Source: Gammaproteobacteria bacterium
GTDB taxonomy: Bacteria; Pseudomonadota; Gammaproteobacteria; Pseudomonadales; Cellvibrionaceae
Assembly (NCBI GenBank): GCA_004172865.1
Contig: SEBV01000002.1
Span: forward strand, 186,001-250,000
Length of the DNA stretch: 64,000 nt
Direction: 5' to 3'
A model generated the notes under the pieces. It saw only the letters and a program-made list of their open reading frames with translations, searched no databases and had not been told where the DNA came from. Shown here in pieces: positions 8,946 through 30,218 of the stretch (its first letter is position 1; each line of letters starts with the position of its first letter). The position numbers were made by a program, and so were the translations under genes.

Positions 8946-11678
8946 CTAAAGTGAGTTTATAAATTTCACTAGGGCATCTTTGTCGCTGGAGGAAAGCCTT
9001 TCGTAGGCTTGTTCTGCATTTAGGCCTTCGCCGCCATGCCAACGGATGGCTTCATCGATGGTGCGTGCGCGGCCATCGTGAAGGTAATTCGCGTTGGGTG
9101 TGCAGACTTTGTGTCCATCAACACCATAAGGAAGACCGTCGGTATTTTCAGGGCCAGTAACGCCGCCAGTGACGCACGGTGATAGACCTACACTCCAGAG
9201 CGGAGCGGTACGCCATTCGGCGCCACTGGCTTGGCCTTCGGCGAGATTATCCGCAAGCCCTGCGCCCATGTCGTGCAACAACAAGTCGGTATAGGGGTGA
9301 ATAGTTTGGCTACGCAATTCCGTTAAAGGTGCAAAACTTGAGGTGGTGAAAGTTGGAGTATGGCAAGCCGCGCAACCAGTGGTCGTAAATAGGTTTTTGC
9401 CTTGGATAACGGCAGCACTTGCGTAATCACGTTGTGAGCGAACACCTAATAAGGAAATGTATTTCACCAGATTCGTTAAATGGGTTTCACTCAATTCCGA
9501 TCCGGTAGTATTGCCGCAGTTGCTTTGTGCGGAGCCACAATCTGGTTTTGGCAATACGCTGGTCATCACCCCCATATCAGTATTTAACGCAGCGGCAACC
9601 TGGTGACGAACGCTAGTAGTCGCCGCTTTGTAGCCGAAACGACCAAGGCGAACTTGCCCGGTTACGGGGTCAGTAATTTTTTGTGCTTTGCCTGAAATGC
9701 CATCGCCATTTGCATCGTTTTCGTCAGCGAGCGCCAAGACTGCAGATTCAGGAATCGCTTCCAACAATCCCATACCGACCAGTTGCGGAGCGATGCGCGC
9801 TGAATATTGTGCAGGTGCGCCACGTTCGAATTGGAAGTTGGGTTTACGTAAACCGTTAACTTCGGTGAAAGAAGAAATCGATACATTTCCCTCACCAGAT
9901 GCAACGCCATTTACGTTGTTTGGCTGAAGCACGCGACCAATAGAGGACGATGGATTACCGGCGCTATCGCCCACTTTGAAGACCCATTTCGTCAATGGCT
10001 CACCTATAGCCGCGACCGCCGCGCGACCGTTGCGGTTATGGCATTGAACGCAGGATGAATTCACATAGTTGGGGCCGGCTTTACCAACCATCTCGTCAAA
10101 AACACCGTTCTCTTCCGACTCGTCGTGGTGGCCGTTGGTGAACTCGGTATGCGCAAGGCGACGACCCAAAACAAAGGGTTGGCCGTTGCCGTAACCCAAA
10201 CCGTAAGTCATCTGCATAAAGTGATCTGCAGGTTCTGCCGAGGTTTGGCGATTGAGACTGTGGCTGCCGCCAGTCAACGCAGCGGTGGGCATTTCAATTG
10301 AATCACGCTGATAGGTTTTGCCGCCCACAAACGGATTCATATCGGTCACGTCCCAAGGTACGAGCCCTTTGCCAACGATGTAGAGAAAAGTACTACCGTA
10401 ATAGTGATTGCGGCCTCTCAACAAAGTAGAACCATCAAGAAATAAGCTGATTTCAAACTCCAGCTTGTCGCCGATTTTGATGGGATTAAAACCGCCACGA
10501 CAGTTGATAGTGGATTCTTTCCAGTAATGGGTTTGGTCGATCACGTTCATCACACCGTTGCCGCAGAACTCAGCCAAAGTGTTGTTGCCGAGATACCACC
10601 AGCGGTTTTCTGCCTGGAGATCGTCAAGTTTGCCCAAGGTGGTAACGTTCATTCTGACGGTGGTGCCGCCCTTAGCGACGTAATCGACAATCTCAATGGC
10701 GTCGGTCCGGGTTTCCCAATAGAACGGTAGATAGTGATCGTGCAACTGGAAGTGGTTTTCTTTAGCGTGACGGTCACGAGCACGGTCAGAAAAGCGCGTG
10801 ACTAAGGCATCACCGCGATCAAACTGAATCACCGGTTCCAAAGCGGTAGAACTGTTAAATAGCGGCACTATAGTACCGAGCGCAACTGAACTAACCGAGC
10901 TTGCAACACTCGCCTTTGAGGATGCAATACTAGCTTTAGAGGATGCAACCGCCGAGCTAACGACTGACGCAACGCTCGCTTTCGAACTCGCAACGCTGGC
11001 CTTGGAAGTCGACGCAGTAGAACTCGCTGGCGTCGAAGAAGCGCCTACCGTGCAGCAATTAAATTGCGCCCAGGCCGTATCGGTTTGACCGCCTGCAGCA
11101 ATGCCAATAGTGAAGAAGAAGCGCACAACCGCGCCCGCGGGAATGCTAGTGATGCTGTAGGTATTGGTGTTATCCGCGTTATGCGTCATGCGGATATTGA
11201 GTTGGCTGCCGCCGTTGATGGTGTAATGAACATCGGCCCAGGGCGCATTGTTAGCAAAAAACTGCGCGCTGGAACTGGTGAGAATTCGATAGCCGTTGCC
11301 CGTGCTGGGCGCGGTGCTACTTGCTGAACTTGTCGATGAACTCACCACCGCGCAGCAACTAAATTGTACCCAGGCGGTATCGGTTTGACCGCCAGCCGCA
11401 ACGCCAATCGTATAGGAATATCTAACCGTCGCGCCCACCGGGATCGCACTTAAGGTGTAGGTATTAGAATTGTCCGCATTGTGTGTCATGCGAATATTTT
11501 GTTGCCCGCCACCATTAACGGTGTAATGAACATCCGCCCAGGGAGCGTTGTTTGCGTAAAGTTTCACACTTGAACTTGAGAGCACTGTGTGGCCGCTTTG
11601 CGCGAACACACTGACGCTGCCCATGAGCAATAAAAATCCTACTAAATAGCGCAAAGGTTGTTTGAAAAGACTAAGCAT
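8946..11678 (-). CDS. Secreted di-heme oxidoreductase with two N-terminal beta-sandwich (CBM-like) repeats
   Basis: A 910-residue protein. The ATG at 11678 has a perfect AAGGAGG site and opens a signal peptide (MLSLFKQPL..., about 26 residues). Two copies of an ~85-residue module follow (about 28-112 and 128-212), each with NNAPWADVHYT(V/I)NGG and NIRMTHNADN; they resemble CBM56-type beta-glucan-binding domains, at low certainty. A poly-Ser/Ala/Lys linker (about 213-260) leads to the catalytic part. Heme-binding CXXCH motifs lie at C543-H547 (CVQCH) and C769-H773 (CAACH), as in the di-heme oxidoreductase (DHOR, DUF1111) family related to MauG and cytochrome c peroxidase. About 250 residues between linker and first heme (from IQFDRGDALVTRFSDRARD) are shared only with the paralogue at 12346-15876. 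It probably acts outside the cell on or near a polysaccharide. Confidence 0.85.
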   Translation of the reverse strand: MLSLFKQPLRYLVGFLLLMGSVSVFAQSGHTVLSSSSVKLYANNAPWADVHYTVNGGGQQNIRMTHNADNSNTYTLSAIPVGATVRYSYTIGVAAGGQTDTAWVQFSCCAVVSSSTSSASSTAPSTGNGYRILTSSSAQFFANNAPWADVHYTINGGSQLNIRMTHNADNTNTYSITSIPAGAVVRFFFTIGIAAGGQTDTAWAQFNCCTVGASSTPASSTASTSKASVASSKASVASVVSSAVASSKASIASSKASVASSVSSVALGTIVPLFNSSTALEPVIQFDRGDALVTRFSDRARDRHAKENHFQLHDHYLPFYWETRTDAIEIVDYVAKGGTTVRMNVTTLGKLDDLQAENRWWYLGNNTLAEFCGNGVMNVIDQTHYWKESTINCRGGFNPIKIGDKLEFEISLFLDGSTLLRGRNHYYGSTFLYIVGKGLVPWDVTDMNPFVGGKTYQRDSIEMPTAALTGGSHSLNRQTSAEPADHFMQMTYGLGYGNGQPFVLGRRLAHTEFTNGHHDESEENGVFDEMVGKAGPNYVNSSCVQCHNRNGRAAVAAIGEPLTKWVFKVGDSAGNPSSSIGRVLQPNNVNGVASGEGNVSISSFTEVNGLRKPNFQFERGAPAQYSARIAPQLVGMGLLEAIPESAVLALADENDANGDGISGKAQKITDPVTGQVRLGRFGYKAATTSVRHQVAAALNTDMGVMTSVLPKPDCGSAQSNCGNTTGSELSETHLTNLVKYISLLGVRSQRDYASAAVIQGKNLFTTTGCAACHTPTFTTSSFAPLTELRSQTIHPYTDLLLHDMGAGLADNLAEGQASGAEWRTAPLWSVGLSPCVTGGVTGPENTDGLPYGVDGHKVCTPNANYLHDGRARTIDEAIRWHGGEGLNAEQAYERLSSSDKDALVKFINSL

Positions 11679-11820
11679 TTTTGCCTCCTTCCCTATCACA
11701 GAGACGCCACACTGAACTCGCGCGTGCAGAAAACTACCCATAACCGTAAAACGGCCATGAAGCCCTGACGATCCATGACAAAGCAATTAAGATTTCGGGC
11801 ACTAACTTGTGGACGCTGTA

Positions 11821-11897
11821 ATTTAAGGAACTATTGATTTAAGGAACTTTAATTAAAGGAACTTTGATTTAACGAACTTTTGATTTAAGTAACGTTA
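11821..11897. repeat. Tandem repeat, five imperfect 15-16-bp units
   Basis: Five head-to-tail units of the form ATTTAAGGAACTTTTG start at 11821, 11837, 11852, 11867 and 11883, with one to four changes each. They lie in the predicted leader of the di-heme gene at 8946-11678, between its promoter and start codon. The paralogue's leader lacks the array. Copy number may vary between strains. Confidence 0.8.
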
Positions 11898-11985
11898 TAA
11901 ATCAGTGATTGATGATTGAACGCCTTGGCCGCGACATTGGCTTTGGCAAGTTATCTTTATTGTTGTTAAAACACGTTCTACCGAG

Positions 11986-12003
11986 GGCGAATATCGTTTC
12001 ACC
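11986..12003 (-). promoter_or_regulatory. Conserved leader hairpin or operator of di-heme gene A
   Basis: On the minus strand GGTGAA-ACGATA-TTCGCC can form a 6-bp stem (one G-U pair) with a 6-nt loop. The same element stands before the paralogous gene at 16066-16083 and differs only at two loop bases. It begins about 27 bp after the -12 element, so it would be at the very 5' end of the transcript. Confidence 0.5.
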
Positions 12004-12030
12004 ACGCAAACATACTGGCACAGGCTGGGC

Positions 12031-12045
12031 GCAAATACCGTCCCA
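12031..12045 (-). promoter_or_regulatory. Sigma-54-like promoter of di-heme gene A
   Basis: The minus strand reads TGGGACGGTATTTGC. Against the sigma-54 consensus TGGCACGRNNNTTGC there is one mismatch and the GG-to-GC spacing is exact. It lies about 350 bp before the start codon. The same element with one further change precedes the paralogue. Confidence 0.55.
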
Positions 12046-12146
12046 CTTCAACGGCATTTTTAACATGGGATAGATGCAAAAAAACTGGAACACTGGCACA
12101 GCCCAATGATTGTCTAGAGCATCAAACGGTTATTTGACATAGGTCA

Positions 12147-12210
12147 CAAGCTCCAGCTTGGACGGGTAAATTGGCTAGTCCTGTGGTATGCGTTCGCAAG
12201 CTGGAGCTTG
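12147..12210. repeat. Inverted-repeat pair of palindromic 14-mers
   Basis: CAAGCTCCAGCTTG at 12147-12160 and CAAGCTGGAGCTTG at 12197-12210 are exact reverse complements, and each is itself a near palindrome. The bases after each copy also match in direct orientation (GGACGGGTAA and GGGACGAGTAA). This looks like a small dispersed intergenic repeat. It is followed at 12226 by GGAGG and an ATG that meets a stop after three codons. Confidence 0.6.
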
Positions 12211-12308
12211 GGACGAGTAACTAAAAGGAGGAATTATGCAAATTTAGTATCGCCGGAAATCTCGGCTGTGAATAGATTTGTGCGGGTGACTAAATCAGTC
12301 AAAAAAAA

Positions 12309-12326
12309 GGGGCACCTGAGCGCCCC
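12309..12326 (-). terminator. Terminator of the second di-heme oxidoreductase gene
   Basis: On the minus strand GGGGC and GCCCC flank a short loop, followed by TTTTTTTT. It lies about 20 bp past the stop of the gene at 12346-15876. Confidence 0.75.
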
Positions 12327-12345
12327 AAAAAGGAAGAACAACTCC

Positions 12346-15300
12346 CTACAAAGAATTTAAGAACTTGATCAGTGAATCCTTATCACCCGCCGACAAGCGC
12401 TCGTAAGCTTGCTCTGCCTTTAACCCTTCGCCGCCATGCCAGCGAATGGCTTCATCAATAGTGCGTGCGCGGCCATCATGCAGGTAATTGGCGCTTGGGG
12501 TGCAAACTTCGTTGCCATCAACACCGAAAGGAGTACCGCCGGGCGCGCCAGTTACACCGCCAGTCACACAAGGCGACAAACCAATTCCCCACAATGGCGG
12601 CGTGCGCCACTCCGCGCCACTTGCCAAACCTTCACCCAAATTATCTGCAAGGCCAGTTCCCATGTCATGCAACAACAGGTCGGTATAAGGATGGATGGTT
12701 TCATTGCGCAACTCGGCGAAAGGCGCGTAAGCCGAGGTTTTAAACGTCTCGGTATGGCACGCCGCGCAGCCCGTTGATGTGAATAGCGCCTTACCTTGAA
12801 TAACCTGGATATTGGCATAATCGCGTTGCGAGCGAACCCCCAACAAGGCGATGTATTTCACCAGATTTGTTAAATGCGCATCCGACAACTCTGAGCCGGC
12901 ATTACCGCAATTGCTTTGCGCAGATCCGCAATCAGGCCGTGGCAGTACCGATGTCATCACCCCCATATCCGTATTCAAGGCGGCAGCGACTTGATGGCGA
13001 ACGCTTGTGGTCGCGGCTTTATAGCCAAAACGGCCCAATCGCACGTCGCCGGTCACTGGGTCAGCCACCTTTTGCGCTTTACCGGAAATGCCATCGCCAT
13101 TTGTATCGTTCTCGTCTGCAAGTGCCAAAACTGCGGACTCAGGAATTGCTTCCAGCAAGCCCATTCCCACCAATTGCGGTGCTATACGCGCGGAATATTG
13201 CGCCGGAGCGCCGCGCTCAAACTGAAAGTTGGGTTTGCGTAAACCGTTCCCGAGATCGGTGAAGGAACTGATAGTCACATTGCCTTCGCCCGAACCTGCG
13301 CCATTAACATTTTGCGGTTGTAGCACTCGGCCAATTGCTGGAAATGGATTACCTGCGTTATCGCCCACCTTGAAAACCCACTTGGTCAAGGGCTCGCCGA
13401 TAGCGGCAACCGGCGCGCGGCCGTTGCGGTTATGGCATTGCACGCAGGATGCGTTAATGTAATTTGGCCCCGCTTTACCCACCATTTCGTCGAAAATTCC
13501 GTTCTCTTCCGATTCGTCATGGTGACCATTGGTAAATTCGGTGTGGGCTAAACGGCGCCCCAATACAAATGGCTGGCCGTTGTCGTAACCCAAGCCGTAA
13601 GCCATTTGTATAAAGTGATCGTCGGGCTCGGCAGAGGTTTGGCGATTCAAACTATGGCTGCCGCCCAACATGGCGGAAACGGGTAGCTCAATGCTGTCGC
13701 GTTGATAGGTTTTACCTTGCACGAAGGGGTTCATGTCGGTCACATCCCAAGGTACGAGTCCTTTACCCACCACATAAAGGAAGGTGCTGCCGTAGTAGTG
13801 ATCGCGCCCGCGCGGCAAGAAATTTTTGTCGAGGAACTGGCTAATCTCAAATTCGAGCTTGTCGCCTACCTTAATCACGCGGAAATTTTCGCGGCAATTG
13901 TTGGTATTTTCTTTCCAGTAATGGGTCGTATCTATCACGTTCATTACGCCGTTGCCGCAGAATTCCGCCAGAGTATTATTGCCGACATACCACCAGCGAT
14001 TTTCGGCTTGCAGATCATCCAGCTTCGCGAGCGTGGTTACGTTCATGCGAATCGTGGTGCCGCCTTTGGCAACGTAATCGATGATTTCGATAGACGCGGT
14101 GCGGTTTTCCCAATAGAACGGCAGGTAGTGATCGTGCAATTGGAAATGGTTTTCCTTGGCGTGACGGTCGCGAGCGCGATCAGAAAAGCGCGTGACCAAC
14201 GCATCACCGCGATCAAACTGAATCACCTGTTCTAACGCCGTTGTATTGTTAAACAACGAAACGATATTGCCCAAAGGAACCGAACTAGCGGAAGACGCAA
14301 CACTATTTGCCGCGCTGCTAATCGCCGGTGAAGAACTTGCAGATGATTTACTGCTGCTGGTCGCAACCGCCGAACTGCTGGTGGCAGCTTTGCTACTCGT
14401 GGTCGCCGTGCTGCTCGCTTTACTGGTGGACGCCGCGCTACTCACGCTGCTTGTGGTGCCACCAGTGCCGAAGACTTTCAATTCATATATCGAGTAGCCA
14501 TAACCATTGCCCACACTGCGCGCCGTACCAAAAATACGAACATAACGATAATTACCGGTTACAGCATTGGTATCCGTGCGATTGCCAAAAGTGCCGCCCG
14601 TGATGGCTGCCAAAATAATCCAGTTAACATTATCGTTTGACCCTTGTACTTGATAGCTACCGGCGTTGGCAGCCTCCCAGTCGATAACTACGCTACCTAA
14701 ATTGTAGGCTTGACCAAGATCAACACTGATCCAGCTTGGGTCTATACCTTGGCTAGATTCCCAACGGCTGCCCGCATTGCCATCAACTGCATTCGCCGCC
14801 GCCTGCAATGCCGTGCTTGCTACGGCTGTGCGCCCCAATGCCAGATTAAGGGTTGGCGATACGCTTGAGGCCACTGAATTGCTAGAAGACTTACTGCTAG
14901 CTGCAACCGAGCTACTGGTAGCCGGCTTGCTGCTACTTGTGGCGGCAACGCTGCTTGCAACGCCACCTGAGCCAGCCACTTTCAACTCATAAATAGAATA
15001 ACCCCAGTTATTGCCCACACTTCGCGCCGTAGCGTAGATACGAATATATCTATAGCTGCCGGTCACCGAATTGGTATCAGTGCGGTTGCCAAAAGCACCG
15101 CCGGTTTTGGTCGCGAGCGTAGCCCAACTGGTATTGTCATTTGAACCTTGCACTTGATAGTTAGCGGCATTGGCGGCCTCCCAATCAATGGTGACTGTAT
15201 TCAGGTTGTAGCTCGCACCCAAGTCGACACTGATCCAGCTTGGATCTACTCCCGCGGTAGATTCCCACCGCGTTCCCGCATTGCCATCAACCGCATCCGC

Positions 15301-15876
15301 CGCCGCTTGCAACGCAGAACTGGCGGTCGCTGGGCGGCCCAACGCCAAATTAGCGACAGGAATTCCCGTTGACGACGCACTGCTCGACGGTGTGGATGAA
15401 CTGCTTGAAGCCACCGCGCCGCCATAGATTTTTAGCGACCAGATTGAATAACCGTATTGGCTGGTGCGCGCCGTACCGTAGATACGTACGTACCGATAAC
15501 TGCCAGTGACGATAACCGTATCGGTACGATTGCCAAAAGTGCCACCAGTTTTGGTAACGAGCGTCGCCCAGTTGGTGTTGTCGTTCGAGCCCTGGATTTG
15601 ATAAGTAGCAGCATTGGCGGCTTCCCAATCCAACGCCACGCTTGTCAAGGCGAAGCTTGCGCCAAGATCTACCTTAATCCACGAAGGATCAGCAGATGCG
15701 GACTCCCAACGAGTACCGGCATTGCCATCCACCGCATTAGCCGCAGGCTGAACTGCCGTGCTCGCGGTAGCCGTTTTATTGAGAGCAAGATCCACTTGGG
15801 CGTAGAGAGGCGCGCTCCCCAACAGCAGCGCGAGCGCCACCAGCGAATAGAAATACTTTTTGGTTGATGCAAACAT
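12346..15876 (-). CDS. Secreted di-heme oxidoreductase with three F5/8 type C (CBM32-like) domains
   Basis: A 1176-residue paralogue of the gene at 8946-11678. The ATG at 15876 is preferred because GGTGGAG lies just before it; an upstream GTG overlaps that site. After a signal peptide (to about residue 27) come three discoidin/F5-8C modules (about 28-150, 175-305 and 345-470), each with (A/S)VDGNAG(T/S)RWES, SWI(K/S)VDLG and YRY(V/I)RI. Such modules (CBM32) usually bind galactosides or other glycans. Poly-Ser linkers separate them. The catalytic part is nearly the same as in the neighbour, with heme motifs at C811-H815 (CVQCH) and C1037-H1041 (CAACH). The two genes thus carry one redox core behind two different binding front ends. 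Confidence 0.86.
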   Translation of the reverse strand: MFASTKKYFYSLVALALLLGSAPLYAQVDLALNKTATASTAVQPAANAVDGNAGTRWESASADPSWIKVDLGASFALTSVALDWEAANAATYQIQGSNDNTNWATLVTKTGGTFGNRTDTVIVTGSYRYVRIYGTARTSQYGYSIWSLKIYGGAVASSSSSTPSSSASSTGIPVANLALGRPATASSALQAAADAVDGNAGTRWESTAGVDPSWISVDLGASYNLNTVTIDWEAANAANYQVQGSNDNTSWATLATKTGGAFGNRTDTNSVTGSYRYIRIYATARSVGNNWGYSIYELKVAGSGGVASSVAATSSSKPATSSSVAASSKSSSNSVASSVSPTLNLALGRTAVASTALQAAANAVDGNAGSRWESSQGIDPSWISVDLGQAYNLGSVVIDWEAANAGSYQVQGSNDNVNWIILAAITGGTFGNRTDTNAVTGNYRYVRIFGTARSVGNGYGYSIYELKVFGTGGTTSSVSSAASTSKASSTATTSSKAATSSSAVATSSSKSSASSSPAISSAANSVASSASSVPLGNIVSLFNNTTALEQVIQFDRGDALVTRFSDRARDRHAKENHFQLHDHYLPFYWENRTASIEIIDYVAKGGTTIRMNVTTLAKLDDLQAENRWWYVGNNTLAEFCGNGVMNVIDTTHYWKENTNNCRENFRVIKVGDKLEFEISQFLDKNFLPRGRDHYYGSTFLYVVGKGLVPWDVTDMNPFVQGKTYQRDSIELPVSAMLGGSHSLNRQTSAEPDDHFIQMAYGLGYDNGQPFVLGRRLAHTEFTNGHHDESEENGIFDEMVGKAGPNYINASCVQCHNRNGRAPVAAIGEPLTKWVFKVGDNAGNPFPAIGRVLQPQNVNGAGSGEGNVTISSFTDLGNGLRKPNFQFERGAPAQYSARIAPQLVGMGLLEAIPESAVLALADENDTNGDGISGKAQKVADPVTGDVRLGRFGYKAATTSVRHQVAAALNTDMGVMTSVLPRPDCGSAQSNCGNAGSELSDAHLTNLVKYIALLGVRSQRDYANIQVIQGKALFTSTGCAACHTETFKTSAYAPFAELRNETIHPYTDLLLHDMGTGLADNLGEGLASGAEWRTPPLWGIGLSPCVTGGVTGAPGGTPFGVDGNEVCTPSANYLHDGRARTIDEAIRWHGGEGLKAEQAYERLSAGDKDSLIKFLNSL

Positions 15877-16529: not shown

Positions 16530-19500
16530 ATGTCTTCTATCCCCACTAAAACCGTCAAGTCTGTATGTCCTTATTGCGGGGTAGGCTGCGGTATGTTGCT
16601 GGAAACGGATGGCAAAAAGGTTATTAAAGTCAGCGGCGATAAAAAGCACCCCACCAATTTCGGCCGCTTGTGCACCAAGGGTTCATCGAGCGCACTCGCC
16701 TTAACCAACTCCGGTCGTATGGAATCCGCTTTTGTCCGCAATGATCGCAGCCATGAGCCGATCAAAACGGCAATGGACGAAGCCATCACCAACACCGCAA
16801 AACGCTTGCGTGAGATATTGGATAAACACGGGCCGGATGCTCTGTCATTTTACGTTTCCGGGCAGATGTCCATCGAGTCGCAATACCTCGTTAACAAACT
16901 CGCCAAAGGTTACGTGCGCACCAACAATATCGAATCCAACTCACGCTTGTGCATGGCGAGTGCAGGCGCGGGTTACAAACTGTCATTGGGATCAGACGCC
17001 CCGCCCGGCTCCTATCAGGATTTCGACAAAGCCGATTTGTTTTTCGTAATTGGCGCCAACATGGCGGACTGCCACCCGATTTTATTTTTGCGGATGATGG
17101 ATCGCGTTAAAGCTGGTGCAAAGTTAATTGTGGTTGATCCGCGTCGCACATTGACTGCCGAAAAGTCCCATTTGTTTATGCAAATCAAATCCGGCACTGA
17201 CTTGTCGCTGCTAAATGGCTTGCTGCATCTGCTCGTTAAAAATGGCAAAACCGATTCGGCGTTTATCGAAAAATACACCCAAGACTGGGAAACCATGCCT
17301 GAATTTCTGGCCGATTACACGCCCGAAAAAGTCAGCGAAACCACCGGCATTCCAGTAGCCGACATACTCAAAGCCGCCGACATGCTTGGCGCTGCACCCG
17401 AATTTATGACCTGCTGGACCATGGGTTTAAACCAAAGTACCCATGGAACCTGGAGCACCAACGCTATCTGTAATTTGCACATGGCGACCGGCAGAATCTG
17501 TCGCCCCGGCAGCGGGCCTTTCTCGTTAACTGGCCAACCCAACGCCATGGGCGGTCGCGAAATGGGCTATATGGGCCCCGGTTTGCCAGGCCAACGCAGT
17601 TTATTGGTAGAGAAAGATCGCGTTTTTGTTGAGGACATGTGGGAGATCGAACCCGGCACCATTAGCACCAAAGTCGGCAAAGGTACGGTCGATATGTTTG
17701 AGCGCATGGCAGCGGGCGAGATCAAAGCCTGCTGGATCATCTGCACCAATCCGGTTGCCACAGTTCCCAATCGCAAAATCGTAATCGAAGCCCTGCAACG
17801 CGCCGAAGTTGTAATCGCGCAAGACGCTTTCCTCGACACCGAGACAAATCGCTATGCCGACATACTTTTGCCCGGCGCGCTCTGGGCAGAAGCCGAAGGG
17901 ATCATGATCAACTCCGAACGCAATATCACGCTAATGCAAGAAGCCGTCAGCCCGCCCGGTGATGGATTGCCCGACTGGCAAATCATCGCCCGCGTTGCTT
18001 GCGAGATGGGTTATGAACAAGGTTTTAGTTTTAACTCCGCATCCGAAGTCTTCGAAGAAATCAAACGCAGTTACAATCCCAAAACTGGCTACGACTTACG
18101 CGGCGTAAGCTACGAACGCTTGCGCGAAACGCCATTGCAATGGCCTTGCCCAAGCAACGACGGCGATGACCGCAATCCGATTCGCTATTTAAATGATGGC
18201 ATTAGCCAAACCCTAAAAATCCATGAAGATGGCAGCAAGCCCGATTTAGTTTTCGCAACCGATTCAGGCAGAGCGATATTTTTCGCGCGCCCGCACGTAA
18301 ACCCCGAAGAAATGCCTGATAAAGAATTCCCCTTTATCCTCAACACCGGTCGTCTGCAACACCAATGGCACACGCTAACCAAGACCGGCAAGATCGCCAC
18401 GCTTAATAAATTAAATCCGGGGCCGTTTATTGAAATCCATCCCGAAGACGCGGCTGAATTAGGTGTTAAAGATAAAGACAAAGTAGAAATCCGCTCCCGT
18501 CGCGGCTACGCCATTTTGCCAGCCGTCGTGACAGATCGCGTCCTACCGGGCGGTTGTTTTGCGCCCTTCCACTGGAACGATGTTTACGGGGAACACCTCA
18601 CCATCAACGCCGTCACCAGCGATAAAGTTGACGCAATTTCACAACAACCCGAACTCAAAGTCTGTGCCGTTATGCTTACGCGCGTTAATGTCATCGCAGA
18701 AGAAAGTCCTCACAATTTCCAAAGTGCCAGCGCCGCAAAACGCCCCGCACTTAGCGCACTCAGTCAGGAAACTAGCATGCCGCTTATCACTGCTTTTGCC
18801 GAGACGATTGGCGTCATCCAATCGGCAGCGCCAGAATTGTCTAGCGAAGAAAAACGCTATCTCGATGGCTACATTGCCGGATTAAAAGCCAGTGCTAATC
18901 ACATCAATACTGTGCCGAGCATTCCAGCGGATGCACCCATTCATTCGAACAATCGCGTATGGATTAACGGTTTACTCGCGGGCATGTTTAGCAGTGTTTT
19001 GCCGTTTCATTTGGTGTCTGCTCGCAGCCTTGAGGCTCCGCAAAACGACAGTACAAAACCTAAAATCAGTTTGCTCTGGGCATCGCAAACTGGCAACGCC
19101 GAAACACTCGCTGAAAAATTTGGCATTGAATTAAAAAATAATGGTTGGGATGTAAAACTTAGTGCGATGGACGATTACACGCCCGCCAATCTTACAAAAG
19201 AAAGCCACGTACTTTTTATCACCAGCACTTTTGGCGATGGCGATTCGCCCGACAACGGCCAAAATTTCTGGACGCAATTAAAATCTGAAAGTGCGCCTGC
19301 ATTAAATCATTTGCAGTTCGCGGTACTTGCGATTGGCGATTCCAATTACGATCAATTTTGCGGCCACGGCAAAAATTTATTTGCACGCATACAAGCGCTC
19401 GGTGCCCAGCCTTTAATAGATCGCCTCGATTGCGACACGGATTTTGATGAGCCATCAACACAATGGTTTGGAAAGTTACGCGAACAATTGCAAGTCGTTT

Positions 19501-21164
19501 CCAGCGCAGAAAAATCCACAAGCATAACGATACAAAGCAAACCGAAGCTCGATTTATTATGGGCATCGCAAACCGGCAACGCAGAAGAGCTCGCGCAAAA
19601 ATTTGCAGCACAACTGAAAGCAGCGGGTTGGGATGTAAACCCACAATCCATGAACGATTACTCCGTAGAAAAACTCGCGCAAGATAAACACATTGTATTC
19701 GTCACCAGCACCTTCGGCGATGGCGATGCGCCCGACAACGGCGGCGATTTCTGGAGCCAACTCAACAGCGAAACTGCGCCGCGCCTTGAACAACTTGAAT
19801 TCGCTTTATTAGCGCTTGGCGACTCCAGCTACGACCAATTTTGCGGTCACGGCAAAAAACTTTTTTCGCGCCTTGAAGCACTCGGTGCAAAAGCATTAAT
19901 TGAACGAGTAGATTGCGACACAGATTTTGAAACACCGGCAGCGGAATGGTTAGCTAAACTCAATAAAATATTGAGCAATAAAACTGCCGCGCAAGGTTCA
20001 ACACCAATGGCCTCACCTGCCGGAGAACTCGCCAAAGCAACTGTTAGCGCTTACAGCAAAACCAATCCTTATCCATCGCGCTTAGTGATAAACAAAAAAC
20101 TAAGCACAGAAGGATCGAGCAAAGACGTTCGTCAATTTGGTTTTGATTTGGGTGATTCCGGCATCACTTACGAAGCGGGCGATGCACTCGGCGTGTGGGC
20201 TAAAAACGATCCTGATTTAGTGTTTGAATTAGCGCAAACGATGCAATTTAATGGCGACACGCCGGTACTCGTTGATACGCAAGAAAAACCATTGCGTTTC
20301 GCACTACTGGATAATTTTGAAATTTGTCGCCCTAGCAATGAAATGCTGAATTTTATTGCCGAACGCACCCAAAGCAAAGATTTCAAAAAATTACTCGCGG
20401 GCGATAAAAAAGAATTACAAGATTGGTTGTGGGGTCGCCAACTTGTGGATGTGCTACAAGAATATCCAGTGCGCTGCGCACCAGAAGAACTTTTACAAAA
20501 CCTGAAACGCATTCAACCGCGCTTGTATTCCATTTCATCCAGCCCAAAAGCGCACATCAACCAAATTCATCTCACCATATCGGCAGTGCGTTACAACCGC
20601 TACGGAAAAGTCACGCGTAAAGGCGTTAGCTCAACATTTTTAGCGGATCGCGCTGAAGGAATTAATGTTCCAATATTTTTACAAGCCAGCAAACATTTTC
20701 ATGTTCCCGCAAATGGCGACGCCCCCATGATTATGGTTGGCCCCGGCACTGGAGTTGCACCTTTCCGCGGATTTTTGCACGAGCGGCAAGCGCGCGGTGA
20801 TAAAGGCAAGAACTGGCTATTTTTCGGGGAACAACACGCTGCTACCGATTTTTATTATCAAGATGAATTACAACAATTTCAAAAAGATGGCGTGCTCACC
20901 GAATTAAGCCTCGCGTTCTCGCGCGATCAAACGCAAAAAATTTACGTGCAAGATCGCATGCGCGAACACGGCCAACAAGTGTGGGAATGGCTGGAAGAAG
21001 GCGCGTATTTCTGCGTATGTGGTGACGCCAGTAAAATGGCAAAAGATGTCGATAATGCGCTACGCGATATTATCCAACAATACGGAAAATTTGATGAAGC
21101 CGAAACCGCAAATTATATGCGTAAATTAAATATGGATAAGCGTTATGTGAGGGATGTATATTAA
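16530..21164 (+). CDS. nasA: Assimilatory nitrate reductase fused to two flavodoxin domains and a CysJ-like FAD/NADPH reductase
   Basis: A 1544-residue single-chain enzyme. Residues 1-710 are a NasA-type catalytic subunit: a 4Fe-4S site (C13, C16, C20, C48) and a molybdopterin-guanine-dinucleotide domain, with the cofactor-capping C-terminal domain at about 590-710. A linker (about 730-840) is followed by two flavodoxin domains in tandem (about 844-990 and 1005-1150), each with LLWASQTGNAE, STFGDGD and GDS(N/S)YDQFCGHGK. Then comes a CysJ-type FAD-binding domain (about 1180-1385, RLYSISSSPK) and an NADPH-binding domain (about 1395-1544, MVGPGTGVAPFRG), ending RYVRDVY. It should reduce nitrate to nitrite with NADPH in the cytoplasm. 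Single-flavodoxin fusions of this type are annotated in related bacteria; the second flavodoxin is unusual. No nitrite reductase or transporter gene is adjacent. Confidence 0.92.
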   Translation: MSSIPTKTVKSVCPYCGVGCGMLLETDGKKVIKVSGDKKHPTNFGRLCTKGSSSALALTNSGRMESAFVRNDRSHEPIKTAMDEAITNTAKRLREILDKHGPDALSFYVSGQMSIESQYLVNKLAKGYVRTNNIESNSRLCMASAGAGYKLSLGSDAPPGSYQDFDKADLFFVIGANMADCHPILFLRMMDRVKAGAKLIVVDPRRTLTAEKSHLFMQIKSGTDLSLLNGLLHLLVKNGKTDSAFIEKYTQDWETMPEFLADYTPEKVSETTGIPVADILKAADMLGAAPEFMTCWTMGLNQSTHGTWSTNAICNLHMATGRICRPGSGPFSLTGQPNAMGGREMGYMGPGLPGQRSLLVEKDRVFVEDMWEIEPGTISTKVGKGTVDMFERMAAGEIKACWIICTNPVATVPNRKIVIEALQRAEVVIAQDAFLDTETNRYADILLPGALWAEAEGIMINSERNITLMQEAVSPPGDGLPDWQIIARVACEMGYEQGFSFNSASEVFEEIKRSYNPKTGYDLRGVSYERLRETPLQWPCPSNDGDDRNPIRYLNDGISQTLKIHEDGSKPDLVFATDSGRAIFFARPHVNPEEMPDKEFPFILNTGRLQHQWHTLTKTGKIATLNKLNPGPFIEIHPEDAAELGVKDKDKVEIRSRRGYAILPAVVTDRVLPGGCFAPFHWNDVYGEHLTINAVTSDKVDAISQQPELKVCAVMLTRVNVIAEESPHNFQSASAAKRPALSALSQETSMPLITAFAETIGVIQSAAPELSSEEKRYLDGYIAGLKASANHINTVPSIPADAPIHSNNRVWINGLLAGMFSSVLPFHLVSARSLEAPQNDSTKPKISLLWASQTGNAETLAEKFGIELKNNGWDVKLSAMDDYTPANLTKESHVLFITSTFGDGDSPDNGQNFWTQLKSESAPALNHLQFAVLAIGDSNYDQFCGHGKNLFARIQALGAQPLIDRLDCDTDFDEPSTQWFGKLREQLQVVSSAEKSTSITIQSKPKLDLLWASQTGNAEELAQKFAAQLKAAGWDVNPQSMNDYSVEKLAQDKHIVFVTSTFGDGDAPDNGGDFWSQLNSETAPRLEQLEFALLALGDSSYDQFCGHGKKLFSRLEALGAKALIERVDCDTDFETPAAEWLAKLNKILSNKTAAQGSTPMASPAGELAKATVSAYSKTNPYPSRLVINKKLSTEGSSKDVRQFGFDLGDSGITYEAGDALGVWAKNDPDLVFELAQTMQFNGDTPVLVDTQEKPLRFALLDNFEICRPSNEMLNFIAERTQSKDFKKLLAGDKKELQDWLWGRQLVDVLQEYPVRCAPEELLQNLKRIQPRLYSISSSPKAHINQIHLTISAVRYNRYGKVTRKGVSSTFLADRAEGINVPIFLQASKHFHVPANGDAPMIMVGPGTGVAPFRGFLHERQARGDKGKNWLFFGEQHAATDFYYQDELQQFQKDGVLTELSLAFSRDQTQKIYVQDRMREHGQQVWEWLEEGAYFCVCGDASKMAKDVDNALRDIIQQYGKFDEAETANYMRKLNMDKRYVRDVY

Positions 21165-23701: not shown

Positions 23702-26700
23702 ATGCTTAATATTTTACAAAAAAACTTCAGAGTAAAACCGCTAACAGCAGCCGTTGCATCAATCATCGCTTTAACTGCAAGCTCAATGACTTTTGCGCAA
23801 GAAGAAGCTGATGAAATCGTTGTTACTGGTATTAAGGCAAGCTTGAAACAAGCGATGGATATTAAACGTGATTCAGCCGGTGTGGTTGATGCGATTAATG
23901 CCGAAGACATGGGTAAATTCCCCGATACTAACCTTGCAGAATCTTTGCAGCGTATTACCGGTGTTTCTATTGACCGTACTAACGGTGAGGGTTCAAAAAT
24001 TACCGTTCGTGGTTTCGGCCCTGATTACAACATGGTGACCCTGAACGGAAGAACCATGCCAAGCGGTAGTGCTTACGGTGGTAGTTCAGGTGCTGACGCA
24101 TCAACAACCGGTGGTAACTCCCGTGCATTTGATTTCTCCAACCTGGCGTCTGAATCAATATCAGGCGTAGAAGTGTACAAAACAGGTAAGGCTAATATTG
24201 CAGCAGGTGGTATTGGTGCAACTGTAAACATTAAAACTGCTCGCCCATTAGATAATTCAGGCTTTAAAGCCTCTATTGGTGGTAAAGCCGTAGCAGACAC
24301 TACCAATCGTACCGGTAGCGATGTAACTCCAGAAGTTTCTGGTTTAGTGAGCTGGTCTGATGACGAGTCCAAGTTTGGTGTGTCTTTGACTGCCAGCTAC
24401 GCGAAACGTGACTCAGGGTACACCGGCGCTACCGTTAATGATTGGTCCGTGGATACATGGCTTGGTGCGGACAATAACACGCTGTGGAACATCAAGGCTA
24501 ACGATCCTGCTTTTAAGAATGCGCCAGCAGTTGGCCAGCTCTACTCTCGCCCGAATGACGTTCGTTATAGTTTCGCTGATCAAGAGCGTGAACGCACTAA
24601 CGCACAATTGACATTGCAGTATCGTCCTATCGAAAACCTAACCGCTACCTTGGACTACACTTACGCGCAAAAAGATCAATCTGAACATCGTGGCGAAGTC
24701 ACTACCTGGTTGCAAAGAGGTGCGTACACCACGCTGGTTGAGTTTGATAACTCTACTATCAAGACTCCAAAATTCATTAGTGAAAATTATGGCGCCGTAG
24801 GCGCTGCATTTGACACTGGCTTTTCCCAGCAATACCGCGAACAGCAAGATAAGCTTGAGTCAACGGGTTTAAATCTTGACTGGGCCGTTAATGATCAATT
24901 AACGGTAACGCTTGATGCGCATCACTCAACCATGGATAGCTTGCCCACCGGCCCAGGCCACTCAGGCGAGTTGGACGTAGGTGTTGGCTCGGTTGTTAAA
25001 ACCAGCGCAAACTGGCAATTCAGTGGCAACGACATCCCAACCTGGACTCAGACTAATAATGGCGATCTGGAACAACACCTTAGCTCATCTGTTATGCGTG
25101 TATGGTCCGTTGAGCAATTGTCCACTGTAGATGAGGGTAGAGTTAATGCTAAGTGGAAGTTCGATGATGGCGGTAGCTTTGATTTCGGTCTTGAGCGCCG
25201 CGAAATGAACTCAAACACCATTAATTACAATGGTAACAACCCTCAGATCCTGGGTGGTTGGGGTGCATCGGCTCCAGGCGAGTTCCCTGCAGGATTGTTC
25301 ACACCTTTCGATGTGGCTGGCGAGTTTAAAGATGCAAGCACGGGTAATTCACCACACATCGGTTTCCGTGCTGACGCACGCCAGCTGGCTAACTTTCTGG
25401 TAGGCAAATATAATGGCGAACTGCTGCCTAAAGTAAACCCCGAAGACCCCGATGAAAAACCCAGATACGAGCCAATAGGCTACATTGGGATAGAAGATAC
25501 TCAGGTTCCTGGCCAGGTTCGCAATAGCAAGAGCAACAATGAAGTTGAAGAAAATACCGATGCGTTTTATTTCCAGCTAGGTAACAAAGGCACAATAGGT
25601 GGCATTGAAGTTGATATGCTGGCTGGTTTGCGCTATGAAAATACCAAACAGGTTTCATCCTCAGATACTCCATTGCTGGATCGCTTCGTGTGGGCATCTG
25701 ACAACGACTTTACACCCGTTAGCGGGCCTGTAGGCGCTAAAGTCAGCGTCAATAATGACTATGATGTGCTGCTTCCAAACCTGGATTTGTCAGCCAAGCT
25801 GACTGATACTCTTGTAGCCAGGTTCTCCTATAGCAAAACTATCGCTCGCCCAAGTTTGTCAAATCTCGACGCATCTGTTTCCGGTTATAGCATTAACGGT
25901 TCAACCCTAAACGGTGTTTCCACCAGCGTTAAAGCAAATGCAAACACCCCAACACTGCAACCATTGGAATCGAGCAACTTTGACGTATCTGTAGAGTGGT
26001 ATTTTGATGATGCCAGCTATTTATCTGCCGGCGTGTTTCAAAAACAAGTTAACAACTTCGTAGGCAACGAGAAAACAACGAAAACCATTGGTGACATTCG
26101 CGACCAAACTTCAGGCCCACGCGCGCAAGCGGCTCTTGCTGCACTGAAAGCGAATGGTTTTTCAACCGATGACCCACATATTTTCGCAATGATGAACTTC
26201 TTGGCTCATCCAGACGTTTGGGGTGCACCTGCTAGCATGACAGACGCCGACGTGGTCGAATTGAACAGCACCAAGGCGGAGTATCAAATCCTTCCAGCTG
26301 CTGATGATCCTTTAATGAAGTTCGCTGTAACCGCACCCGTTAATAACCATGAAGCAAAACTTTATGGTGCTGAGTTTGCGGGTCAACACTTCTTTGGTGA
26401 AACTGGCTTTGGCTTGCAGGCTAACTACACCATCGTAAGAGGGGATGTGAAATTCGATAACTTAAACATTGATGCAAACCAATTTGCGTTATTAGGTCTT
26501 AGCGATACTGCAAACCTGGTGTTTATGTATGAAAAATATGGTGTGGAAGCTCGTGTTGCTTACAATTGGCGTGATACCTACCTCAGCAGAACTAACTGGG
26601 GCGCTGGCAACCCAGGCTACATTGAGGCTCACTCACAAATTGATGCGAACGTGACATACCATATCACTGATAATTTGGCTGTATCTCTTGAAGGCATAAA

Positions 26701-26806
26701 CATCACCGGAGAAGATCGTCGTGAACATGGTCGTAACGAAAACATGATGATTGGCTATGACGACTTGGGTGCTCGTTACCAAGCGGGTGTGCGTTACAAC
26801 TTCTAA
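23702..26806 (+). CDS. TonB-dependent outer-membrane receptor (Xanthomonas/Caulobacter type)
   Basis: A 1034-residue receptor. A long signal peptide ends near residue 30 (SMTFAQ), then EADEIVVTGIKASLKQA forms the TonB-box and plug entry. The plug (about 50-170) has DTNLAESLQRITGVSIDR and ITVRGFGPDYNMVTLNGR, hallmarks of the large TIGR01782-like family, and a 22-strand barrel follows, ending in the aromatic C-terminus GVRYNF. GGAGG stands 8 bp before the ATG. Members of this family import carbohydrates or their breakdown products. The five genes behind it are a typical companion set, although a terminator separates them. Confidence 0.93.
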   Translation: MLNILQKNFRVKPLTAAVASIIALTASSMTFAQEEADEIVVTGIKASLKQAMDIKRDSAGVVDAINAEDMGKFPDTNLAESLQRITGVSIDRTNGEGSKITVRGFGPDYNMVTLNGRTMPSGSAYGGSSGADASTTGGNSRAFDFSNLASESISGVEVYKTGKANIAAGGIGATVNIKTARPLDNSGFKASIGGKAVADTTNRTGSDVTPEVSGLVSWSDDESKFGVSLTASYAKRDSGYTGATVNDWSVDTWLGADNNTLWNIKANDPAFKNAPAVGQLYSRPNDVRYSFADQERERTNAQLTLQYRPIENLTATLDYTYAQKDQSEHRGEVTTWLQRGAYTTLVEFDNSTIKTPKFISENYGAVGAAFDTGFSQQYREQQDKLESTGLNLDWAVNDQLTVTLDAHHSTMDSLPTGPGHSGELDVGVGSVVKTSANWQFSGNDIPTWTQTNNGDLEQHLSSSVMRVWSVEQLSTVDEGRVNAKWKFDDGGSFDFGLERREMNSNTINYNGNNPQILGGWGASAPGEFPAGLFTPFDVAGEFKDASTGNSPHIGFRADARQLANFLVGKYNGELLPKVNPEDPDEKPRYEPIGYIGIEDTQVPGQVRNSKSNNEVEENTDAFYFQLGNKGTIGGIEVDMLAGLRYENTKQVSSSDTPLLDRFVWASDNDFTPVSGPVGAKVSVNNDYDVLLPNLDLSAKLTDTLVARFSYSKTIARPSLSNLDASVSGYSINGSTLNGVSTSVKANANTPTLQPLESSNFDVSVEWYFDDASYLSAGVFQKQVNNFVGNEKTTKTIGDIRDQTSGPRAQAALAALKANGFSTDDPHIFAMMNFLAHPDVWGAPASMTDADVVELNSTKAEYQILPAADDPLMKFAVTAPVNNHEAKLYGAEFAGQHFFGETGFGLQANYTIVRGDVKFDNLNIDANQFALLGLSDTANLVFMYEKYGVEARVAYNWRDTYLSRTNWGAGNPGYIEAHSQIDANVTYHITDNLAVSLEGINITGEDRREHGRNENMMIGYDDLGARYQAGVRYNF

Positions 26807-26830
26807 TTCTTATTTAAGGTTGTTAACATC

Positions 26831-26860
26831 AAAAAGAGCCGCTCCTGAGCGGCTCTTTTT
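26831..26860 (+). terminator. Terminator after the TonB-receptor gene
   Basis: AAAGAGCCGCTC and GAGCGGCTCTTT form a 12-bp stem with a 2-nt loop and T run. Read-through or a separate promoter would be needed for the genes downstream. Confidence 0.87.
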
Positions 26861-26904
26861 TATATTTCACTCATAATAATTTTTGGCTTACGGGTAAGGT
26901 TTGT

Positions 26905-27669
26905 ATGCAAAAAATAGAAGTACTCAATAATATTACTCACGAACAGCTGAAGATAAATCCAACATTTTCAGCAGAGCTAGGCGACAACATCGTCAGTACG
27001 GTTACTTTTTTGACCGAATTATCACAAGTTCAAAAAGAATATCCCATACTCTGCCGTAAAGATGCGGAGACAAATGAATACCAAGCGGTTGTATTCTTTG
27101 GTTTTGAAAAAGATGAAAATTTATTTTTGACTGAAATGAAAACTACAGTTCAAAAACATTTAGGCTGGAATGCAGAATATGTGCCCGCTGCTGTAGCGAG
27201 AGGCCCATTTTCAATTGGTATGCATCGTGAACTTGTGGATGGATTAGAAACACATAATGCGATGGTACATGTTGACTTGAATCATCCTAAAACAAATTAT
27301 GAGAATGGTCCCAAGCTGTTTTTAGAAAATGGTGGGCAGAGTCCATACCTTAACCACATTTCCAAGACCCTTGAGATTATCAAGGATGGCATGCATCTAA
27401 CAAAATTAATGTTTGATGCTTTCAATAAATATCAGTTATTAGATTCTGTCGTTTTGGATATAGAATTTCAGAATCAAACTAAATTAAAAATCTCCGGATT
27501 TGAAACCATAAATACTGACAAATTATCTCAGCTAAATGGTGCCGCGCTTGAAGAGCTAAATAAATCAGGTTTTCTCCAAGCCGCTTATCTTATTGCTGCA
27601 TCCATGTCTAATATCAGAAAATTAATTGATTGGAAAAACCGAAAGCTTGCAGCGGGTGATGCTAATTGA
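26905..27669 (+). CDS. SapC-family protein
   Basis: A 254-residue protein without signal peptide. The pattern VTFLTELSQVQKEYPILCRKD, YQAVVFFGFEKDENLF and YVPAAVARGPFSIG is that of the SapC family, named after a Campylobacter S-layer locus gene but found mostly next to TonB receptors in proteobacteria. Its biochemical role is unknown. AAGG precedes the ATG. The next gene overlaps it by 4 bp with a TTG start, so the set is translationally coupled. Confidence 0.87.
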   Translation: MQKIEVLNNITHEQLKINPTFSAELGDNIVSTVTFLTELSQVQKEYPILCRKDAETNEYQAVVFFGFEKDENLFLTEMKTTVQKHLGWNAEYVPAAVARGPFSIGMHRELVDGLETHNAMVHVDLNHPKTNYENGPKLFLENGGQSPYLNHISKTLEIIKDGMHLTKLMFDAFNKYQLLDSVVLDIEFQNQTKLKISGFETINTDKLSQLNGAALEELNKSGFLQAAYLIAASMSNIRKLIDWKNRKLAAGDAN

Positions 27670-28691
27670 CACTGAAAAAAACAAAGATTTTGCATGGATT
27701 TGATTCACAGAATATTCCAAAAGAAGTAATTAATTCTGCAGAACCTGTTGTTTTTAAACAATTGGTTGGTGATTGGCCTATGGTTCAGGCTGGGCGAATC
27801 TCTGATCGAGCATCAGTTGATTATCTAAAGTCATTTTATAATGGTAATCCTTCGACTGTTTGTAAAATTCCCGCCAAAAATAACGGCAGGATGTTTTACA
27901 ACGAAAATTGCACCGAGCTTGATTACGAAAGTTTTAAAGGACGTATCGACGAAACCCTGGATGCTATTTTGGAAGGTGTAGATCAAATAGATAGCCCAGC
28001 TTATTACATTGCCTCAAATATTATTGATACGCATCTACCAGGATTTAGCGATAACAATAATATTGTAATTCCGAGAGTTGCGCATGCTGACGCAATGGAC
28101 GAAAGAGTTAGCATATGGATTGGTGGCGCAACTACAGCCACTTGTCACTTTGATGCATTAGACAATATAGCGTGTTGTGTTGCGGGTAAGCGTAGATTTA
28201 CGCTTTTTCCACCAGATCAAATAAGCAACCTATATCCAGGACCACTAGAGCCAACGCCAGGTGGGCAAGTCATTAGTTTGGTTGATTTTAAAAATCCTGA
28301 TTTTAAAAAGTTTCCTAAATTTAAAGATGCACTGTTGGCCGCGCAAGTGGCCGAGCTGGAACCGGGCGATGCTTTATATATCCCCAGTATGTGGTGGCAT
28401 CATGTAGAGAGCCTCACGCATTACAATATTTTGGTTAATTATTGGTGGGAAGATGCTCCATCTTTTTTAACGTCAGGCATGAACGCGCTCTATATGGCGA
28501 TGCTTGGAATCAGAGATAAATCCGCTCACGAGCGAGAAGGCTGGAAGCACATTTTCAATCATTATATTTTTGATGGCGCAGAAAAATCTAATTCTTACAT
28601 CCCTGCTGAAGCGAGAGGCTTTTTACAAACACTGGATAGACTTGGCGTAAGAAAATTAAGAGCGTTTCTTATTAATAAATTAAATCGTTAA
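27666..28691 (+). CDS. Cupin-like (cupin_8/JmjC-type) Fe(II)/2-oxoglutarate oxygenase
   Basis: A 341-residue protein with a probable TTG start overlapping the SapC stop (TTGA). The double-stranded beta-helix core spans about 120-265. The metal-binding triad is visible as H161-x-D163 (CHFDALDN) and a distal His at about 245-246 (WWHHVESL), and AGKRRFTLFPPDQ is the typical strand after the first site. Relatives hydroxylate amino-acid side chains of proteins or small molecules. It is encoded between SapC and a flavin halogenase; the substrate is unknown. Confidence 0.87.
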   Translation: MTLKKTKILHGFDSQNIPKEVINSAEPVVFKQLVGDWPMVQAGRISDRASVDYLKSFYNGNPSTVCKIPAKNNGRMFYNENCTELDYESFKGRIDETLDAILEGVDQIDSPAYYIASNIIDTHLPGFSDNNNIVIPRVAHADAMDERVSIWIGGATTATCHFDALDNIACCVAGKRRFTLFPPDQISNLYPGPLEPTPGGQVISLVDFKNPDFKKFPKFKDALLAAQVAELEPGDALYIPSMWWHHVESLTHYNILVNYWWEDAPSFLTSGMNALYMAMLGIRDKSAHEREGWKHIFNHYIFDGAEKSNSYIPAEARGFLQTLDRLGVRKLRAFLINKLNR

Positions 28692-28701
28692 TCCTCATAA
28701 A

Positions 28702-30213: not shown

Positions 30214-30218
30214 AATCT

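Follow-up and report, generated by a model that had tools for sequence, protein, structure and literature searches.

Tandem modular di-heme proteins of a Cellvibrionaceae bacterium, probably targeted to beta-1,3-linked glycans

Di-heme oxidoreductase (DHOR) proteins that carry carbohydrate-binding modules (CBMs) are described, in the open-licence PubMed Central (PMC) literature that we searched, in one paper only, on Xyn65 of Gilvimarinus xylanilyticus. According to the available excerpts of that paper (PMC9638140), Xyn65 is a secreted, strict endo-1,3-xylanase with the architecture GH26-CBM31-CBM6-Big-DHOR (GH, glycoside hydrolase), expressed in E. coli BL21(DE3) and accounting for 82.3% of four secreted 1,3-xylanases on 1,3-xylan; its authors state there that no GH with a DHOR had previously been found, and suggest that the domain may act on 1,3-xylan as an oxidoreductase, or may serve in binding or stabilizing. 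Because of this protein the principle of a DHOR joined to CBMs and a hydrolase is already in print; for DHORs bearing CBM56, F5/8C or GH16 domains, a search of the same literature, which is no proof of absence, returned no paper. Here we describe two modular minus-strand DHOR genes, A and B, arranged head to tail in a 64,000-nucleotide stretch of DNA (hereafter the window; contig SEBV01000002.1, positions 186,001 to 250,000, assembly GCA_004172865.1) from a gammaproteobacterium of the family Cellvibrionaceae. They represent a conserved modular branch of a poorly known heme family, most likely aimed at beta-1,3-linked glycans. Like Xyn65, whose hydrolase is a beta-1,3-glycan hydrolase in the excerpts cited, they join a DHOR to CBMs; unlike Xyn65, which has a GH26 domain and targets 1,3-xylan, they are without a hydrolase domain and carry CBM56 or F5/8C modules. 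The size (~180 kDa) and genus of Xyn65 suggest that its DHOR belongs to the same branch. We consider it likely that A and B are targeted to a beta-1,3-linked glycan, and our best explanation as a whole, a di-heme oxidoreductase acting on such a glycan beside hydrolases, is put forward tentatively.

Oxidative attack on a polymer by an extracellular di-heme protein has a precedent in RoxA, a relative of cytochrome c peroxidases (CCPs) of ~70 kDa, which cleaves an insoluble polymer (PMC6311187, in the portions available). RoxA and RoxB thus resemble what we propose for A and B in location, di-heme content, CCP kinship and oxidative polymer attack, and differ in the polymer and in the CBMs, which are a feature of A and B. 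These two enzymes are marked by O2 stably bound to the N-terminal heme and by the lack of peroxidase activity. Membership of A and B in the RoxA/RoxB group was considered and rejected, with no match in sequence searches or among the best 50 of 520 Foldseek rows. A di-heme dioxygenase and a diol synthase that act on fatty acids, kin to RoxA and the CCPs (PMC4496055, available excerpts), may be seen as a further precedent for oxygenase chemistry in the superfamily.

Gene A (8946..11678, minus strand) encodes 910 aa; its open reading frame (ORF), 8946-11786, begins at a TTG, and the likelier start is the ATG at 11678, with AAGGAGG just upstream. A signal-peptide-like N-terminus (MLSLFKQ...VSVFAQ, 11598..11678, read by eye) is followed by two CBM56 modules (Pfam PF22184; 11376..11594 and 11076..11285), linkers including a Ser/Ala-rich one read from the sequence (10881..11042), and a C-terminal core of 646 aa (8949..10886), delimited by Pfam, alignment and an AlphaFold model. 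Gene B (12346..15876, minus strand; likely ATG at 15876) encodes 1176 aa with a similarly signal-peptide-like start, three F5/8C modules (15430..15753, 14980..15312 and 14476..14808; Pfam and home-made profiles), linkers including a Ser-rich one read from the sequence (14323..14457), and a C-terminal core of 642 aa (12349..14274; Pfam and alignment). The Pfam DHOR family (PF06537; curated cut-off 22 bits) matched A with 231 bits (E 2.3e-68) and B with 225 bits (E 1.4e-66), CBM_56 matched two stretches of A (E 3.1e-42), and F5_F8_type_C three stretches of B (E 3.1e-58). Each protein contains exactly two CXXCH motifs, CVQCH (10038..10052 in A, 13432..13446 in B) and CAACH (9360..9374 and 12754..12768). 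The original prediction, made from the sequence of the window, was right about the place and strand of both ORFs, their di-heme motifs and numbers of modules, and, by eye, the Ser-rich linkers and signal-peptide-like starts; the cores that it called nearly identical do share both motifs but, with 548 of 645 columns identical (85%), are better described as closely similar. From these features we infer that A and B are secreted.

The core consists of a beta-sandwich N-terminal domain (N-domain) of ~205 residues (10272..10886 in A), for which Pfam has no match, followed by the DHOR part. AlphaFold modeled the whole core with a pLDDT of 89.5 and a pTM of 0.92, and the N-domain alone as a beta-sandwich with a pLDDT of 87.9. 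Foldseek found no solved structure matching the N-domain at E <= 0.001 (the best, CopC, has a non-significant E of 0.08); H40 is the sole invariant His in 49 N-domains. In the comparison of the whole core, which covers the best 50 of 520 rows, three matches had E <= 0.001, namely hydrazine synthase gamma, gonococcal CCP and MauG (E 6e-5 to 6.4e-4), with TM scores by target of 0.38-0.41 and other MauG rows reaching up to 0.48. In the C-terminal heme half, 118 columns of a profile of 49 cores also aligned with CCP-type proteins of 17 loci (E 1.3e-11). The core therefore resembles MauG and the bacterial CCPs (PF03150), which are among its nearest solved folds; in contrast to them, A and B carry CBMs and the N-domain, have a His in place of Met or Tyr at the likely C-terminal axial position, and show no match to CCP_MauG (PF03150) at E 0.1, a family with no match in the whole genome either. 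Structure prediction and comparison with MauG, the check that had been suggested with the original prediction, placed the core remotely in the MauG/CCP superfamily. The description of A and B as di-heme, secreted-looking, carbohydrate-targeted proteins of this superfamily is supported.

Both CXXCH motifs, H538, H603, H617 and many further residues are invariant in 49/49 cores from several phyla. His617 (in RWHGGE, 9036..9038 in A) is the candidate second axial ligand of the C-terminal heme: it aligns to a Tyr of the CCP-type proteins from 17 loci (Tyr in 13 of the 17, His in 3, Lys in 1), a position that in solved bacterial CCPs aligns with the Met ending the same helix. This Met is taken to be the E-heme ligand, as is Met280 in gonococcal CCP (PMC10094543, available part). 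Since His617 is invariant and falls on the Tyr/Met ligand position, it is reasonable to regard the C-terminal heme as probably His/His-ligated; that of RoxA is likewise His/His, through residues of its own (PMC6311187, same portions as above). The invariance of both heme motifs and of so many residues across phyla also bears on the idea that the DHOR is degenerate, its redox function lost and its part reduced to binding or scaffolding. This option was raised for Xyn65 (PMC9638140, in its available excerpts), and for A and B such conservation makes it the least probable of the explanations that we considered.

A different function would be that of a glycan-anchored peroxidase, which would remove H2O2 at the polymer surface and shield the hydrolases, with the polymer as docking site and not substrate; the H2O2 could be a product of other oxidases or of the defences of algae, plants or fungi. 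Pfam calls DHOR a putative peroxidase, the family lies within the CCP/MauG superfamily, and Q429 (49/49 cores) and D437 (47/49), picked by eye, could form a peroxidatic pair. However, profile alignment of the N-terminal heme half gave nothing usable beyond CXXCH, and hence no support for this pair; gene neighborhoods, considered below, bear on the same question.

Cores of the long type found in A and B are widespread. A scan of named genomes, from which the best 80 loci of at least 481 stretches encoding a relative were taken, yielded together with earlier loci 69 proteins with a full-length core, window A (L009; L and G numbers are our handles for loci and genomes) included. They occur in Gammaproteobacteria, Planctomycetes, Verrucomicrobia, Fibrobacteres and Myxococcota, with carriers such as Microbulbifer, Pseudoalteromonas, Colwellia, Teredinibacter, Gilvimarinus, Archangium and Corallococcus and several metagenome bins. 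Among 120 Cellvibrionaceae genomes, the N-domain was detected at E <= 1e-20 in 56, representing 15 of 32 genera, with up to 10 matches per genome; ten were counted in G119. In a midpoint-rooted FastTree of 127 heme parts, 28 of the 31 short (plain DHOR) sequences formed one clade with a support of 0.998, the three outside it being L095, L103 and L069, the last a fragmentary long core. By this tree, from one method, the long-core DHOR is a branch apart from plain DHORs, the DUF1111 proteins of the same Pfam family (PF06537), which share the di-heme half and its two CXXCH but are mostly 447-541 aa long in this sample and without modules.

This separation is relevant to heme or iron acquisition, a role proposed for DUF1111 proteins beside imelysins, in which the polysaccharide would be a waiting place. 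DUF1111 genes have been shown next to imelysin-like iron-uptake genes (PMC3143127, available part), and the one plain DHOR (~450 aa) of the genome studied here (5.25 Mb, 229 contigs) adjoins genes for a TonB receptor and a solute-binding protein. We had also considered an imelysin beside this plain DHOR, a candidate dropped when the two upstream genes matched the solute-binding protein and the TonB receptor instead. As the long cores branch away from the plain ones and the long-core contexts examined are rich in glycan hydrolases, we regard iron acquisition as very unlikely for A and B.

Modules on the relatives point to polysaccharides. The Pfam scan covered 64 N-terminal extensions of more than 70 residues (six of the 69 proteins have shorter ones and were left out, and window B was added) and detected 23 families, among them F5/8C (29), CBM56 (23), Lipoprotein_15 (13), CBM6 (10) and GH16 (5). 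A wider, partly hand-picked set (some proteins chosen by length) comprised 85 distinct proteins once 4 of 89 had been removed as duplicates; home-made profiles for CBM56, F5/8C, CBM6 and GH16 found at least one of the four on 62 of them, so that the assumption that DHOR proteins usually lack such modules does not hold for this branch. The CBM56 modules of A match those of solved beta-1,3-glucanases, including BH0236 and BglH, and are homologous to that of PsLam81A (PMC9609564, available excerpts); these enzymes are hydrolases, whereas in A the CBM56 is tied to a di-heme domain. In a GH81 enzyme, CBM56 boosts curdlan hydrolysis (PMC9609564, same excerpts). Two side observations concern these extensions: Lipoprotein_15, a "secreted repeat of unknown function", stands as one or two units close before the core in L017, L029, L042, L045, L046, L059, L167, L172 and L175, and L166 and L177 (the latter two from G119) have F5/8C, CBM56, PA14 and a GH16-like part before the core, called GH16 by Pfam in L177 only.

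A GH16 domain was found fused to the core in 16 distinct relatives by the home-made profiles. All 16 retain ExDxxE, 15 also have CBM6 or CBM56, and Pfam GH16 or SKN1_KRE6 backs 11 of the 13 that were scanned (L169, L170 and L176 lie outside the Pfam scan). The GH16 parts of L046 and L043, the two compared with solved structures, have laminarinases as their best matches (E 4.6e-49 and 3.3e-28). Hydrolases also occur next to cores as separate genes: L167 has on one strand a GH16 gene, a GH16-CBM6-CBM56-core gene, a protein of the Pfam Beta-lactamase family and a GH81-CBM56 gene, and in L179 and L180 GH16 genes are divergent from the core gene. The Beta-lactamase-family gene of L167 (8900-9991, plus strand) stands between the GH16-CBM-DHOR gene and GH81-CBM56. 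Of 92 cores (from 93 core matches in the Cellvibrionaceae sample), at least 8 have a GH16 match in another ORF no more than 5 kb away, compared with a chance expectation of about 1 that assumes five GH16 genes per genome and ignores kinship and contig ends. Because relatives are fused or adjacent to enzymes cleaving laminarin and other beta-1,3-linked sugars, these proteins probably do redox chemistry on such sugars.

Near the named long-core loci there were 147 neighbors of less than 1500 aa within two genes, of which 131 were scanned, those of five distant or tandem loci being left out; 25 of 81 and 25 of 97 neighbor families were listed, and the others may include LPMO_10. Among the families listed, GH16 was found in 3/60 and 2/71 neighbors and Exop_C in 4/60. 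PSCyt3 (DUF1588), which we take to be cytochrome-related, was found in 2/71 and would suit a peroxidase. Apart from PSCyt3, the families listed include no small redox protein of the type from which bacterial CCPs receive electrons (PMC10094543, available part), which weighs slightly against a peroxidase; on balance we regard this function as possible but doubtful.

The distribution of the core across genomes was compared with those of the candidate partners in three sets: a named set of 34 long-core and 15 plain-DHOR genomes (48 of the 80 loci, and G000), a relatives set of 57 genomes, 23 of which have the core (cut at ~300 bits), and the family set of 120 Cellvibrionaceae genomes, 56 of which have it (GH16 at E <= 1e-15, LPMO and GH81 at E <= 1e-10). 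All of these counts ignore kinship, and CBM56 is often part of the DHOR protein itself. GH16 was present in 31/34 long-core versus 5/15 plain-DHOR genomes of the named set, in 22/23 genomes with the core versus 9/34 without it in the relatives set, and in 54/56 versus 27/64 in the family set. CBM56 (21/23 versus 3/34, relatives set) and GH81 (22/56 versus 7/64, family set) also went with the core; GH81, tried as an independent marker, was rejected since it is not significant outside the genus.

The original prediction had instead linked A and B to a modular lytic polysaccharide monooxygenase (LPMO) 18 kb away, to which they would give electrons or peroxide, or from which they would take them away. 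That LPMO was found 17.5 kb from B (33430-36258; LPMO_10 E 7e-33), and the co-occurrence check, with LPMOs of auxiliary activity family 10 (AA10), was positive within the Cellvibrionaceae, where LPMO_10 is present in 49/56 genomes with the core versus 24/64 without it; in the relatives set the counts are 19/23 versus 8/34. Across phyla the check turned out negative: LPMO_10 occurs in 11/34 long-core versus 1/15 plain-DHOR genomes of the named set (p 0.08), leaving 23/34 carriers without one, and no LPMO match was obtained in G005 (four N-domain matches) or G010 (two genes), which both have the core. Nor is there linkage, as none of the 92 cores of the family sample has an LPMO_10 match within 20 kb on the same contig (contig ends ignored), and the gap of 22-25 kb in the window, match to match, is the shortest seen among them. 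LPMO_10 is also absent from the 23 families of the 64 extensions. AA10 LPMOs act on chitin or cellulose, unlike the beta-1,3-glucan to which CBM56 and GH16 point. That LPMO and core pair up within Cellvibrionaceae is unsurprising in bacteria that degrade polysaccharides; GH16 accompanies the core both within the family and across phyla, whereas across phyla LPMO_10 accompanies it in only one third of the carriers. The partners of the core favor beta-1,3-glucan over LPMOs, and the coupling to an LPMO as first stated is weakened to the point where we consider it improbable.

The explanation that we prefer is as follows. A and B would be tandem-duplicated, secreted di-heme c-type oxidoreductases of the distinct long-core DHOR branch, held by CBM56 and F5/8C (CBM6 in relatives) on a beta-1,3-linked polysaccharide that could be laminarin-like, curdlan-like or a fungal beta-glucan, with 1,3-xylan as the target of one published relative. 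Hydrolases of families GH16, GH81 and GH26 would work alongside them. The C-terminal heme, probably His/His, would relay electrons, and the N-terminal heme would bind O2 or H2O2 and oxidize either the bound glycan or what is attached to it, so that the substrate serves as electron source and the glycan is opened to the hydrolases. Heme binding, the heme ligands, the glycan target of A and B and the chemical step are predicted here from sequence and structural models; direct oxidation of the glycan by the core is a conceivable step that we advance with considerable reserve.

Several observations weigh against this explanation. We know of no heme enzyme that oxidatively cleaves a polysaccharide, and in the literature that we searched no measured activity, binding or heme content was found for the DHOR part of such proteins. 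The likeness in fold to MauG, CCP and hydrazine synthase is remote, with TM scores by target of 0.35-0.48 overall. A and B themselves are without a GH16 neighbor, the nearest GH16 match on their contig being ~178 kb away, and F5/8C modules do not fix a glycan. Of the 85 proteins of the wider set, 23 have none of the four modules searched; because that set includes proteins chosen for length, the 16 GH16 fusions are not a frequency, and two of the 13 scanned fusions (L166 and L171) have no Pfam GH16 match at E 1e-4. In the named set, GH16 is present only as the DHOR fusion itself in at least one (G060) of the 31 genomes positive for it. The association with GH81 is weak outside the genus (7/38 versus 4/61, p 0.10), and the co-occurrence of LPMO_10 with the core in the family set, given above, belongs to the same list.

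As for the origin of the pair, the original prediction of a duplication followed by an exchange of N-terminal modules held in its first part. The tree places L010 (91% identical to A) and L039 together with A, and B branches outside this group. F5/8C followed by CBM56 occurs in one protein in L010 and in many homologues from the same genus, so that an exchange of modules is not needed. On the module maps of the homologues and the tree, we replaced it by loss and amplification. The simplest account would start from an ancestor of the form F5/8C-CBM56-core, with a duplication that preceded the divergence from the L010 genome; CBM56 would then have been doubled in A, with loss of F5/8C, and F5/8C tripled in B, with loss of CBM56. 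What counts against so neat an origin is that neither Pfam nor the home-made profiles recognize a module in L039 or in L011 and L012, the relatives that come next. The genome of A and B also encodes a further modular copy, the third, which bears two F5/8C modules and is 48% identical in the genome search and 39% over a longer BLAST alignment; a DUF2167 gene lies directly 3' of it (L007:9695-10612, plus strand). Tandem long-core genes were also seen in Archangium lansinium, where two with short extensions occupy L083:7763-11821.

Between B and the LPMO, the window contains a nitrate reductase gene, a DUF5610 gene and a row of genes for a TonB receptor, SapC, a cupin and a halogenase. The first of these (16530-21164, plus strand, 1544 aa) is divergent from gene B, starting ~650 bases from the B start, and combines a molybdopterin/Fe4S4 nitrate-reductase-like part, two flavodoxin domains and a CysJ-like FAD/NAD part. 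The row (23702-31517, plus strand) comprises in order TonB receptor, SapC, cupin, tryptophan-halogenase-like and JmjC/cupin genes. The LPMO itself (minus strand, 942 aa) is unusual in holding LPMO_10, GbpA_2, CBM10, a Cip1-like core domain and CBM2 in one chain.

Algae and fungi use beta-1,3-glucans as major carbon stores and wall polymers, and to our knowledge the known bacterial LPMOs do not act on these glucans. We raise as a speculative idea that heme-based polysaccharide oxidases are widespread, attacking beta-1,3-glycans oxidatively with O2 or H2O2 and often in one chain with a hydrolase; if this were true, heme enzymes would play the part on laminarin, curdlan, fungal glucan and 1,3-xylan that copper LPMOs play on cellulose and chitin. 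The presence of a conserved di-heme domain in one chain with laminarinase-type domains in several bacteria, or with a 1,3-xylanase in the published case, suggests an overlooked redox step in beta-1,3-glycan breakdown, and DHOR, a family of unknown function, gains concrete candidate substrates.

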